Shown piece by piece: positions 1-23,643 of a stretch of 64,000 nucleotides of DNA (the first letter of the stretch is position 1; the number at the start of each line of letters is the position of its first letter). This DNA comes from Syncephalis plumigaleata. Lineage: Eukaryota; Zoopagomycota; Zoopagomycetes; Zoopagales; Piptocephalidaceae. The DNA is taken from positions 44,145-108,144 of the forward strand of contig JAIXMF010000026.1 of NCBI GenBank assembly GCA_025201365.1, written 5' to 3'. Made by a program: the position numbers and the translations under genes. The notes under the pieces were generated by a model that was not told the DNA's origin, did no database searches, and worked only from the letters and a program-made list of their open reading frames with translations.

Positions 1-22
1 CACATAAAACTGCAAATGTCAG

Positions 23-592
23 AGGGTAAGTCAGTATTCCAGCTAATTTACATAGCGTATTAATTATATTGTGGTGCACTATTGACTGTTGCTTGTGCAT
101 GAAAGAAAGTGAGCCATCATTCTGATTACAATCTACGGTATACTAATCATAATACGATATTTACTTGTATCGTTATTATAGAAAGTAAATTAATATCCGA
201 ATGTTAATACATCATGCACTTATTCCAATGGAATGTACAATCCACGTATAATCATGCACAGAAAGAAGTAAGTTTTATCGTTTGATTTGGTCAAACATCT
301 TGTCAAGCTAATCCATTGTTGTGTTTCCTAGTTGGAGAAAGCGAATCAACATGTAAGTTGATGTCACCATTACAATCTATGGTGTATTAATCGAAATATT
401 ACAAATGATTAACGTATGGCTGCATGATAGCTTGTAAGTTAAACGTGTCAGCTAGTAGACATGAAGCATTAATCATAGTATGACATACAACTCCCGTATG
501 ATCATGAATACTAGGATGTAAGCTAGCATTTTTAGCATTGATACATCGATCTAATCACAATACAATTTACATCATCTAAACGATAGAAATAA
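23..592 (+). CDS. Microexon secreted-peptide gene, copy 1 (5' end outside window)
   Basis: Only the 3' part lies in the window. I read successive exons between GT-AG introns at 23-25, 106-108, 182-184, 262-267, 332-352, 431-433, 515-517 and 587-595, so five exons are 3 nt, one is 6, one 21 and one 9. All lengths are multiples of three. Read in phase 0 they encode RKKKELEKANQHLDK and end at TAA 590-592. Introns are 64-86 nt, share GTAAGT-like donors and CTAAT/ATTAAT branch sites, and resemble those of copy 2 at 21.8-23.6 kb. One acceptor is AAG (103-105). A last intron (596-647) separates the stop from a conserved final exon. Copies 1 and 2 both have TAA followed by GCA at the end of the penultimate exon. 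The signal peptide exon is not visible, so the secreted assignment is inherited from copies 2 and 3. A second frame through the last exons is also open and cannot be excluded without cDNA. Confidence 0.55.
26..586 (+). repeat. Array of seven related short introns (copy 1)
   Basis: The introns lie at 26-105, 109-181, 185-261, 268-331, 353-430, 434-514 and 518-586. They start GTAAG, GTGAGC or GTAAAT, carry a CTAAT or ATTAAT element in their second half and end in TAG, CAG or AAG. The exons between them are mostly one codon. They are more diverged from one another than the introns of copy 2. Confidence 0.55.
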
Positions 593-647
593 GCAGTAAG
601 TAATAATTCACAATAATCATATCCATACTGATCCATTATGACTACAG

Positions 648-804
648 AACAAGACAAGGACATCATCAAGTAGATATTATAGGTATTCAAGTCAAGAATG
701 GATTGGTACAAGACCCTCATTTAGTGTCCATGCCATTCAAGTCATTATTCCTTGGACCAGCAATATATCTACAAGATCATTCAATCATTTATTGAATAAA
801 TATG
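648..804 (+). other. Conserved terminal exon / 3' UTR of the microexon family (copy 1)
   Basis: This segment is nearly identical to 23644-23807 and is also found, with an internal deletion, on the minus strand at 20368-20509. It ends in an AATAAA-containing stretch that is probably the polyadenylation signal. In my preferred model it lies after the stop codon. Small indels of exactly three bases between copies 1 and 2 leave open that part of it is translated. Confidence 0.6.
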
Positions 805-20529: not shown

Positions 20530-20718
20530 CTAGGCATGGGACTCTTTGGGGGGAGGAGATTGCCTGGCGGTATCAGCAGCGGCGGGAGGTTTCTCTATAA
20601 CTTCTGTAACTTCTTCTTGAGGAGTACGACGGGTTATTGCGGGCTTAGCTTCAACGGCGACCAGGCTGGTGAGAGTGACGACGGCGACGGCAATAGCGAT
20701 AACGGCAGAGAACTTCAT
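20530..20718 (-). CDS. Small secreted peptide, intronless paralogue (copy 3)
   Basis: A 62-residue open frame starts at ATG 20718 (context CAACATGAAG, shared with copy 2). The first 24 residues are a classical signal peptide: MKFSAVIAIAVAVVTLTSLV then AVEA. Over the first 31 residues, 24 match copy 2. The mature part is Pro/Glu-rich (TPQEEVTEVIEKPP) and unlike copy 2. Straight after the shared Arg-Arg it reads ACT CCT, where spliced copy 2 reads GCT CCT across two exon junctions. No introns are present. TATA-like TATATATA lies at 20853-20860 on this strand. The role is unknown; a short secreted peptide with a conserved leader and variable body fits an effector or signalling peptide. Confidence 0.75.
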   Translation of the reverse strand: MKFSAVIAIAVAVVTLTSLVAVEAKPAITRRTPQEEVTEVIEKPPAAADTARQSPPPKESHA

Positions 20719-20860: not shown

Positions 20861-20985
20861 GCCATGATGATGGCGGTGGTTGATGTTTCTAATGAACAGG
20901 ATAAAGCATTTTAAAGGGATCTGATTGGTGGAAAATTCGAGGGAAACTCGACGAGGTTCCGAGCGTACTATTTTATGATAGCTAT

Positions 20986-21057
20986 AGCAACGTAGCGCAG
21001 TGGAAGCGTATTGGGCTCATAACCCAAGGGTCGGTGGATCGAAACCACCCGTTGCTA
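20986..21057 (+). tRNA. tRNA-Met (anticodon CAT)
   Basis: A complete cloverleaf of 72 nt without intron. The acceptor stem AGCAACG pairs with CGTTGCT, with discriminator A. The anticodon stem is TTGGG/CCCAA with loop CTCATAA, giving anticodon CAT, and the T stem is GGTGG/CCACC. The GC content and the elongator-like acceptor suggest elongator Met, though initiator identity is not formally excluded. It lies between the two divergently oriented secreted-peptide genes. Confidence 0.93.
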
Positions 21058-21762
21058 TTATTATTTAAGCTGCTACTTCATCTACTTAGTGATGATATAT
21101 CACTTTATTATGATAATACAAAGTAGGGGAGTATTTTTCATTTTTATTTTTTACACTATAGTGTGGTTTCCTAATTAGGAAATGCTACACGTTGATTAGT
21201 GGTCAACAATGCAGCCATTGCTAGTAGAAGGCATTTGGTAGTTAGCGAACAATGACGTGAACAAAACAAAAGTTTCTTGTTTGATTGATATAGAGAAGAA
21301 CGGCTAGCTCGGCTACGTATACACTGTTTGCTATATTAGCCTTTGTCGTATGAATACTGAATGGCCTTTGCAGGACACGTCTCAATGGCATGAATCATAC
21401 ATTGAATAGAACAATAAACACACATTATTATTAGTGGTTGCAATAATGGAGTATTTTGAAATGCCGATATAATGTAGGTTCGGATAATTGACAGATCATG
21501 CGGTTACACGACATGGCAAACATTCACCACTCATCTAATTGGTACTATCTGCTCGCTATACTACCTGCAAACAATGGATTGACGATTCTGCTATATCAAT
21601 ATCTGCCATCATCATTATCATCTCGGCTATAAATCGAGCACCATTGCTACACTCAACTTGCCATCTTTATACTCGCTCTTCTACTCTACTCTACTCTAGC
21701 TGCTATCTACTCTCGTTCTAGTCTGTTTATCTGTTTATCCATTCCACTAGGCCAACATCAAC
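21058..21762. other. Upstream region of the microexon gene
   Basis: No coding signal. The last 140 bases hold a TATA box (21628-21634) and a pyrimidine-rich leader with CTCTACTCTACTCTA-type repeats before the ATG at 21763. Confidence 0.5.
21628..21634 (+). promoter_or_regulatory. TATA box of the microexon gene
   Basis: TATAAAT in the context GGCTATAAATCG, 129-135 bases upstream of the ATG of the signal-peptide exon. The clear TATA box suggests regulated or strong expression. Confidence 0.55.
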
Positions 21763-23586
21763 ATGAAGTTCTCTGCCATTATCGCTATTGCCGTCGCCGT
21801 TGTCGCTCTCACCAGTCTGGGCGTCGTTGAAGCTAGTCCCGCCTTGGATCGTCGTGGTATGTCTGGCCGTGACCCTATCAATTGATGTACTAACCGTAGC
21901 CTATTGTTTCATTGTCTACCGATGACTACCGATAGCTCGTAAGTTCATGTATATTAATGGTTGTTTTGCCATGCTAATCACATTTCAATGTTTATTCCAT
22001 CTGTTACTTTGTTAATAATAGCTGGTAAGTTAGTTTATTGACCGTAACAAGTACTAGGCTAATTGTAGTGCAAATCAAAATTATATATAACTACCATTTT
22101 CAAGTACCTGTAAGTTATCGTAGTGGCTACAAGCTATCTGTACTAATTATGATATTATACATGATCCACCTATTTGTATACAATAGGTCGTAAGCTACCA
22201 TTTTGATCACATGAATCCCGTGCTAACTAAATTACAACACTCATTCATATGTTCCTGTCTGATAGGGAGTAAGTTATCATTCTGACAGTATCGTATAATT
22301 GCTAATCACCCTATGACACCTGATCCACGTATGTTCTTGTATGATAGATTGTAAGTTACTATGCCAACTATACAGTATGGTCGCTGATTACCATATGACC
22401 TACAATTCACATATGTTCCTGTACCATAGCCTGTAAGCTATCACTATGATTATGATGCATGGTGTACTAATTACAAGATGTCACACAATTTATACATTAT
22501 CGTATTATAGGGCGTAAGTAACCATTTTGATCGTATTGAACGAGGTATTAACTATGGTATGATACTGATCCACGTATGTTTATGATAGGGTGTAAGTTCT
22601 CGTTCTGATTGTAACAAGTGATGTATTAATTATAACGTGACACACGATCCACGTATATTTCTGTGCACCAGTTTGTAAGTTGTCATTCTGTCTACAATGT
22701 ATGGCTGGGCTAACTATAGTGTGACACATGATTCCGTATGCTCTCGTATAATAGCGGGTGAGTTACCATCCTGGCCGTAATGAATGAATACTAATATCAA
22801 TGTGGCTCATGATCCACGTATTCGTTTGTATACGATAGGCCGTAAGTCATCATTATGGTTGTAATACATGCATGAATGAGTACTAATCACGCTATGGCAC
22901 ACGATTTTTGTATGTTCCTGTATGATAGCAAGTAAGTCATTATTCTGATCGTATTTACGGCGTACTAACTATAATCTGACCCATGCTCAATACATGTTTA
23001 CATATGATAGGACGTAAGTTTCCATTTTATTTGTAATCTATGGATGTACTGATCACGATATGACACATGGTCGATATGTGTTTTGCATAACAGATTGTAA
23101 GTTATCATTCTGATCATAATGCATGGGTATACTAATTATAGCATAATATCACTTCATGTGTTCCTGTATTGCAGAAAGTAGGCTAGCATTTCGATGATAA
23201 TGAATAACGTACTAATTGCAAATGGCACATAATCCATACGTTCGTATATAACAGCATGTAAGTGAGCATAACAATTACACACTATGATTACTAATTATAC
23301 CATGATGCATGATTCACATATGACCCTCTATGGTAGCCTGTAAGCTAATACGATTGCTGTAATGAACGGTACGCTGACTAAATGTGACACACGGCTAATA
23401 TGGGTATTCCTCACGATAGGATGTAAGTTAATATTTCTGATCGTAACGCGTGGATGTACTAATCACGCTATGGCACACAATCCGTATGTAATTTTGCATA
23501 ACAGCTTGTAAGTTACTCTTCTGGCTGTAATGTACGACGCGCTAATCACAATACGGTATTCATTGATTGAATAGCCACCACAATAA
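21763..23586 (+). CDS. Secreted peptide encoded by 20 tandem microexons (copy 2)
   Basis: Exon 1 (21763-21856) encodes a signal peptide (MKFSAIIAIAVAVVALTSLG, then VVEA) and ends in LDRR plus one base. Then come 3-nt exons at 21936, 22022, 22187, 22266, 22348, 22430, 22511, 22589, 22672, 22755, 22839, 22929, 23011, 23094, 23175, 23255, 23337, 23420 and 23505 (first bases), with a 5-nt exon at 22105-22109 after an AAG acceptor. A 15-nt exon (23575-23589) holds the stop TAA 23584-23586. Of 22 donors, 16 are GTAAGT; acceptors are 15 TAG, 6 CAG and 1 AAG. The spliced product is 55 residues. After the leader it reads APVP, then VGIPGGFRAQDIKHPDL from exons 5-21, then PPQ. No stop occurs in this frame. 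Copy 3 supports the first junctions. Function unknown; secretion is predicted. Transcript data would settle the model. Confidence 0.65.
21857..23574 (+). repeat. Tandem array of 21 homologous introns, unit about 80 bp
   Basis: Introns of 67-87 nt follow one another with 3-nt exons (once 5 nt) between them. Many share the layout GTAAGTTATCATTCTGATCG, then TACTAATCAC near the middle, then GACACATGATCCACGTATGT and a TGATAG end. Donor, branch site and acceptor are kept, the intron bodies drift, and the codons between them are almost all different. This looks like repeated duplication of an intron-plus-codon unit followed by divergence under splicing constraint. Confidence 0.75.
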
Positions 23587-23589
23587 GCA

Positions 23590-23643
23590 GTAAGTGATAA
23601 TCCAACAGATAATCATACCCATACTAATCCATTATGATTACAG
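23590..23643 (+). other. Putative 3' UTR intron of copy 2
   Basis: GTAAGT donor, TACTAAT branch site and CAG acceptor, 54 nt, lying after the TAA. The homologous intron in copy 1 is 596-647. Confidence 0.6.

Follow-up and report, generated by a model that had tools for sequence, protein, structure and literature searches.

Runs of predicted single-codon exons in a family of candidate secreted-peptide genes of Syncephalis plumigaleata

The window analysed here, a stretch of 64,000 nucleotides of Syncephalis plumigaleata DNA, contains a gene that is very likely, judged on its sequence, to be a micro-exon gene in which exon 1 would supply a signal peptide and Arg-Arg, and the whole of the mature peptide would be assembled from 20 tiny exons and a terminal exon. 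It is one member of a large family rather than a single gene. An initial annotation of the same DNA had read it as a secreted peptide gene with one-codon exons in its mature part, and this prediction is supported by a conserved frame, avoided stops and constraint in 34 genes, by the junctions found in four of seven intronless relatives, by codon choice and by NCBI gene models. The species belongs to the Piptocephalidaceae (Zoopagales), and Piptocephalis and Syncephalis are termed mycoparasitic in a review (PMC10386755).

The exon series originally proposed, a leader exon followed by 19 exons of 3 nt and one of 5 nt and then by a 15-nt exon carrying TAA, was recovered between 21763 and 23643, with the following features.

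21763..21856, + strand: exon 1, 94 nt, ending in phase 1; encodes MKFSAIIAIAVAVVALTSLGVVEASPALDRR
21857..21935, + strand: intron 1, donor GTATGT; missing from the seven intronless relatives
21936-21938 and 22022-22024, + strand: first two 3-nt exons, CTC and CTG, with one intron between them; phase 1
22105..22109, + strand: 5-nt exon TACCT, behind which phase 1 gives way to phase 0
22187..23507, + strand: 17 single-codon exons, with introns of 75-87 nt between them
23575..23589, + strand: terminal coding exon CCACCACAATAAGCA, with in-frame TAA at 23584-23586
23590..23643, + strand: last intron, 54 nt, beginning 3 nt past the stop codon
23644..23800, + strand: family-wide 3' UTR exon (coordinate 23800 is not a mapped end)

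Exon 1 encodes a hydrophobic leader, called as a signal peptide by eye, and a short pro-part whose last residues are Arg-Arg, which we take to be a Kex2-type site. As phase 0 is set by the 5-nt exon, all later 3-nt exons of the gene would be whole codons, and the 17 that follow it read GTC GGA ATT CCT GGC GGT TTT CGG GCC CAA GAC ATT AAA CAT CCT GAT CTT. The mature peptide deduced behind Arg-Arg, APVPVGIPGGFRAQDIKHPDLPPQ, has the 24 residues previously given for it. The introns measure 75-87 nt for the 20 that run through the last 3-nt exon, then 67 nt and finally 54 nt. Direct listing of the units reproduced the annotated counts of GTAAGT donors (16 of 22) and of TAG or CAG acceptors (21 of 22). 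A branch-like ACTAA, CTAAT or CTAAC element, which had been claimed for every intron, was present in 18 of the 22 and absent from four, in which the corresponding element is CTGAT, TTAAC or TTAAT. The 3' UTR exon was found at 40 scored places in the genome (of 220 candidates), with identities of 90-100%.

Chains of this kind were not obtained from shuffled sequence. With a splice-chain program that links donors, branch-like elements and acceptors by dynamic programming, using a slight exon-length penalty and no preference for 3 nt, the real array gave 21 units, of which 19 were 3 nt, while 200 dinucleotide-preserving shuffles of the array gave at most one 3-nt unit (mean 0.09). The maximum among 128 other window pieces, searched on both strands, was four such units, at window positions 1-760, and a second array gene proved to end in this piece. 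The array was left unreported by Tandem Repeats Finder at its default score, indicating that the units are diverged. Upstream flanks of the units share a mean identity of 52% within a gene, although some pairs reach 98-100%, and a single intron used as a DNA probe gave 7 matches.

A tblastn search of the 32.6-Mb assembly with the 31-residue leader returned 150 scored places of 168 candidates (E 2.6e-12 to 0.0028), some of which are allele-like copies, so that the number of genes is lower; at 69 of the 150 places the open frame is 44 aa long. Forty-three loci were examined, comprising 29 of 30 loci obtained from the best matches (with the window gene included and L032 left out) and 14 chosen later, a sample that leans to close relatives of the window gene. 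Arrays, with up to 47 internal exons, were found in 36 of the 43 loci, and seven were intronless (L026, L027, L053, L055, L058, L060 and L068). The counts that follow come from 34 models, which are the 36 array loci minus L035 (a partial stretch) and L036 (an irregular model), built with GC donors and long introns allowed. Among their 781 internal exons, 704 are of 3 nt, 29 of 5, 29 of 9 and 7 of 2, with rarer sizes of 6 nt (five exons), 12 nt (four), 15 nt (two) and 25 nt (one); the highest number per gene, 47, occurs in L049 and L050. The 781 introns have a median length of 80 nt (5-95% range 73-84), GTAAGT serves as donor in 603, and the acceptors are TAG (543), CAG (200) and AAG (38). An apparent GC-AG intron, with donor GCAAGT, lies behind a TGG exon inside the array at unit 14 of L071. 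Residues 30-31 are Arg-Arg in all 34 modelled genes.

A profile search with 15 members, in which hits were clustered at 90% identity and which, being word-based, needs shared 5-residue words, gave 23 proteins: 16 from S. plumigaleata, one from NCBI and six from metagenome or ENA sources. The deduced protein of the window gene matches four proteins, all of them from S. plumigaleata. No Pfam match over the cut-off was obtained for eight deduced proteins, and a conotoxin match of L045 (E 0.012, under the cut-off) was not used. The six metagenome or ENA proteins (P0018-P0023) have a related leader, which in P0018, P0020 and P0021 is followed by an ending resembling exon 1 read into intron 1; judging by these three sequences, the leader, and perhaps intron 1 also, may be present in other organisms.

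Phase 0 is reached through a 2- or 5-nt exon in all 34 modelled genes and is then kept to the end in 31, the exceptions being L047 and L057, where a 2-nt exon occurs within the array, and L048, whose 3' end the script left untrimmed. Terminal exons were recognised in 28 of the 34, in 27 by the motif TAAGC[AG] and in L013 (TGGTAAAT) by eye. As this motif was the main criterion for recognition, its frequency (27/34) is partly circular, whereas its frame is not; the terminal TAA is in frame in 26 of the 28 and out of frame in L047 and L057. In the other six models the end of the locus sequence used is reached (L063, L066, L069 and L071), TAAACA stands in place of the motif (L048) or the model is irregular (L042). 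In the terminal exon of L041 and of L064 a TGA lies two codons ahead of the TAA, and L067 as modelled has an early stop in a 9-nt exon. Behind the phase-setting exon, only one of 658 3-nt exons is a stop (TGA, in L047) against 20.1 expected, and none of 5000 shuffles within codon position contained one stop or fewer; a non-redundant set gave 1/517 against 17.0 expected. With L047, L057 and L067 as exceptions, the arrays have an open frame throughout their exons and, where a terminal exon was recognised, an in-frame terminal stop.

The codons are also kept in near-identical copies. In four allele-like pairs, intron sites differed at 69/1402 (window gene and L046), 14/3388 (L049/L050), 37/2403 (L045/L063) and 16/852 (L041/L064), and exon sites of the same pairs at 0/62, 0/143, 1/134 and 0/38, respectively; summed, this is 136/8045 for introns and 1/377 for exons, whereas exons changing at the intron rates would have given about 6.4 differences. 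A C..CC..C framework, with its cysteines in separate exons, fits 11 of 32 distinct mature sequences, a raw count without a shuffle control in which some of the 11 are close relatives. Cysteine makes up 9.7% of microexon residues, compared with 2.0% in ten ORFs of the window representing ordinary sequence.

Three independent signs point to splicing, the first being codon choice. A codon ending in A forms AG with the G of a following GTAAGT, and NCA and NTA codons would thereby create CAG and TAG, the two common acceptors. In a comparison of 533 microexon codons from 26 genes with 3516 ordinary codons from ten window ORFs, NCA was used in 1/109 cases against 277/898 (p 2.9e-15) and NTA in 2/53 against 277/765 (p 9.2e-8), and CAG was chosen for glutamine in 0/18 against 43/141. 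Selection therefore seems to keep the exon edge unambiguous, and synonymous choice seems to have been reshaped by splicing, codons that would complete a CAG or TAG with the following G being almost absent. NAA codons, which yield the less common AAG acceptor, were used more than usual (58/75 against 283/479 ordinary), and avoidance of GAG was not seen (9/22 in microexons against 103/231 ordinary). Biases beyond acceptor avoidance were noted in the same 26 genes: TAT in 18/18 and TTT in 19/20 cases, near-exclusive use of CTT, AAC over AAT, and few codons ending in G.

The intronless relatives bear on the array ends only. TAAGCA is followed by AACAAGACAAG in L026 and L027 and by AGCAAGAC in L053, and TAAGTG is followed by AACAAGACAAG in L068, in each case the junction expected from a spliced last intron. 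This spliced-type junction is present in four of the seven, and L026's own frame ends upstream of it; in the other three TAAGNR is lacking and another stop precedes the shared 3' exon. On the 5' side, CGTCGTG runs directly into CTC in three of the seven (L053, L055 and L060), and CTC is the first microexon in 20 of the 34 array genes. A contiguous copy was not found by tblastn with two deduced mature peptides, a search run without a positive control, so a whole array-coded peptide was not seen to recur in any intronless relative.

Further support for exon joining was seen in NCBI gene models. Model P0006 joins 40 of the 44 single-codon exons of L050 and P0005 joins 28 of the 30 of L066, both differing near the 5' end. 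Agreement is poorer elsewhere: P0001 contains PQEWNEF of L040 and little else agrees, P0014 against L044 gave 25 matched and 14 unmatched, and between P0012 and L067 there is hardly any agreement (7 and 8). Across P0005 and P0006, a non-GTAAGT donor is found in 5/6 skipped exons against 5/68 included ones. As the NCBI models may be gene-finder output, they count as support for exon joining and not as proof. On the combined sequence evidence, the spliceosome would very probably include every 3-nt exon in vivo.

Nine gene pairs were compared for evolutionary change. Between L037 and L038 two whole units have been gained or lost, while 2/53 exon sites and 21/961 intron sites differ. Exons differed more than introns in three of four more diverged pairs, L048/L070 (16/83 against 132/1745), L061/L072 (13/47 against 93/899) and L062/L065 (24/68 against 198/1475), the unit alignment being uncertain in the last two, and these three pairs together hold 23 nonsynonymous and 3 synonymous codon changes. 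A fourth diverged pair, L042/L043, showed the opposite (exons 3/41, introns 81/840). For the 49 disjoint pairs of units whose flanks are 90% or more identical, 23 codon nucleotide differences were counted against 7.2 expected, two or three codon bases had changed in 6/49 against 0.50 expected, and 11 of the 13 changed codons were nonsynonymous; the associated p of 1.4e-5 is optimistic, as units of related genes are non-independent. The codon swaps ATC/TAT and AAG/GGT sit within flanks that are 97.6% identical, and recent duplications of units with the same codon, with flanks 98-100% identical, occur in L064, L041, L049 and L050. The idea of codon cassettes, in which each amino acid has its own unit type that travels with its intron, was set aside as weak. 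When gene pairs called homologous were excluded, units sharing a codon were barely more similar than others (0.498 against 0.492), although the most similar pairs (at least 80%) were enriched for the same codon (24/77, base rate 0.030). As read from these comparisons, the array evolves like a tandem repeat with a predicted unit of one intron plus a codon, apparently under constraint in the short term and with fast codon change between several paralogs.

The second array gene reaches the window with its 3' end, and two further features lie near the window array gene.

1..650, + strand: 3' end of the second array gene, whose first exon (MESSADNNNN...) is without a hydrophobic leader
23-25, 106-108, 182-184, 262-267 and 332-352, + strand: its exons AGG, AAA, AAA, AAAGAA and one of 21 nt
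431-433, 515-517 and 587-595, + strand: its last exons CTT, GAT and AAATAAGCA
20626-20718, - strand: contiguously coded family member with leader MKFSAVIAIAVAVVTLTSLVAVEAKPAITRR, about 1 kb from the array gene and divergent from it
20985-21058, + strand: tRNA-Met gene, between the two divergent family members

The second array gene has 44 modelled units, 38 of them 3 nt, and its first modelled donor lies 2947 bases upstream of the window; L076 and L077 are the stretch of this gene 2947 bases and more upstream. Its first exon was read by eye, and the same start is used in NCBI model P0024, which has this exon and EGSWI-DYIY; the residue absent from P0024 is the exon with a GTAGGT donor in the C179 (second array) gene. 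The deduced product is predicted to be charged and helix-like, and the TAAGCA terminal exon and the 3' exon are common to this gene and the leader family. An LYRM2-like identity of the product (E 0.0012, under the cut-off) was rejected, as the genome places C340 and C268 score above the cut-off; the LYRM2 profile had over-cut-off matches in 0/14 control genomes. The best E obtained for the product against solved structures was 0.64. A divergent family pair similar to that of the window was observed in the leader search near 570 kb of contig C362, and C179 may thus be an allelic or duplicated segment.

Under the micro-exon reading, the array would be a diverged tandem repeat with a unit consisting of an intron of about 80 nt (GTAAGT...CTAAC/T...TAG) and one codon. 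The short introns would be removed via intron definition, a 2- or 5-nt exon would bring the frame to phase 0, and translation would end at the TAA in the last coding exon, so that units duplicated, lost or re-codoned over time would change the peptide by whole residues without a frameshift. Duplication, loss and short conversion between units, the last being a presumed route, could swap a codon while the intron stays, given the near-constant splice-site flanks. Such a "spliced minisatellite", its repeat unit being one intron and one codon, may represent a new way to build and evolve proteins, a proposition for which we hold the balance to be even. The leader with Arg-Arg, the Cys patterns, the size of the family and its fast change fit small secreted peptides at a parasite-host interface. 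The peptides are likely, from the leader and the dibasic site, to be secreted and cut at Arg-Arg; that they are effector- or toxin-like and act on a fungal host could as readily prove wrong as right.

The array could instead be a non-coding minisatellite or intron-like repeat, past which exon 1 is spliced or into whose first intron translation runs and ends, with the AG-NNN-GT spacing a by-product of unit duplication. The units are indeed a diverged tandem repeat (mean flank identity 52%, some pairs at 98-100%), and exon inclusion is a prediction from DNA. A repeat of that kind, however, sits poorly with one stop in 658 exons where 20.1 were expected, with a TAA in frame in 26 of 28 genes, with codons kept while introns drift in the four allele-like pairs, and with the C..CC..C pattern in 11 of 32 sequences, the acceptor-avoiding codons and the NCBI models that include the codons. 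The non-coding repeat was rejected by the stop, frame and constraint tests and is considered extremely improbable. A different purpose for the micro-exon array, namely the skipping of single codons to give many isoforms per gene, is rather unlikely. Each 3-nt exon is frame-neutral, and exons are skipped in P0005 and P0006, mostly those with a non-GTAAGT donor, but the same exons would be omitted by any gene finder that applies a cut-off to donors; constraint in the allele-like pairs and the Cys patterns favour one main product, and the avoidance of ambiguous acceptors favours accurate inclusion.

It is also conceivable, though in our judgement unlikely, that the arrays are selfish, an introner-like intron having spread in tandem through dispensable genes in which one-codon exons are tolerated without being adaptive. 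This would agree with an intron consensus that extends well past the splice sites in 26 genes, with the recent unit duplications, with the same architecture in an adjoining gene without a visible signal peptide, and with L042/L043, which has no excess of codon change (3/41 against 81/840). Against it, codon change exceeds intron change in three of the four more diverged pairs and is mostly nonsynonymous, and the codons kept in near-identical copies point to selection on the peptide, with which a selfish origin is still compatible.

The preferred reading, a micro-exon gene family, invites comparison with known systems. As described in PMC10526429, schistosome MEGs number 35 and contain 10-20 very short exons, most of them 15 bp long (range 6-81 bp, or 3-81 bp in the abstract), and introns of about 0.1-5 kb. 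MEGs are like the Syncephalis arrays in having a signal peptide followed by many very short exons, mostly multiples of three, and in encoding a parasite's secreted products. The arrays differ in their long runs of single-codon exons, with up to 47 internal exons, and in introns of about 80 nt that are repeats of one another. The array genes have the signal-peptide exon (the leader being judged by eye) and the short-exon series of MEGs, whereas in place of 15-bp exons and introns of 100 bp-5 kb, 704 of 781 exons are 3 nt and the intron median is 80 nt. Aphid bicycle genes, according to PMC9168663, have about 17 exons on average, with internal exons almost all in phase 2, and over 100 microexons are present in the megacycle gene. 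They too combine many tiny exons with a fast-evolving putative effector family, but the Syncephalis arrays are set apart by exons that nearly always measure 3 nt and, once the phase-setting exon is passed, lie in phase 0; phase 0, rather than phase 2, holds to the end in 31 of the 34 genes. The array genes thus resemble MEGs and bicycle genes in having many tiny exons, yet depart from measures used to describe those genes and are therefore not classed with either.

Isolated exons of similar size are reported, namely a 1-nt exon in Arabidopsis (PMC4674806), a 1-nt exon in Fusarium CYP621A (PMC12940212) and a 3-bp exon in Drosophila homothorax (PMC7392893). Splicing thus handles exons of 1-3 nt, in fungi as elsewhere, but in these cases they are single exons within ordinary genes, whereas the Syncephalis gene would be built of them. 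Introner elements form families of similar introns, and in recursive splicing an acceptor adjoins a donor. In Syncephalis, by contrast, a codon sits between acceptor and donor and is kept. Among the matches listed for the open-access PMC literature, a collection that subscription papers mostly fall outside, no paper was found that deals with micro-exons in Syncephalis or describes runs of single-codon exons.

The 150 scored leader copies, set against the 16 S. plumigaleata proteins and one further NCBI protein found by the profile search, suggest that many candidate effectors of this early-diverging mycoparasite are missing or mis-modelled in public annotation. If confirmed by transcripts, these would be runs of single-codon exons longer than any among the literature matches listed, and in a fungus. 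They would provide a test of how the spliceosome handles dozens of adjacent 3-nt exons, a case in which codon choice is dictated by splice-site ambiguity, and a system where a protein evolves one residue per repeat unit. As the architecture occurs both in the Cys-rich leader peptides and in an adjoining charged protein, its use in this genome may be general. It may also allow the mycoparasite to alter the peptides it secretes by single amino acids.
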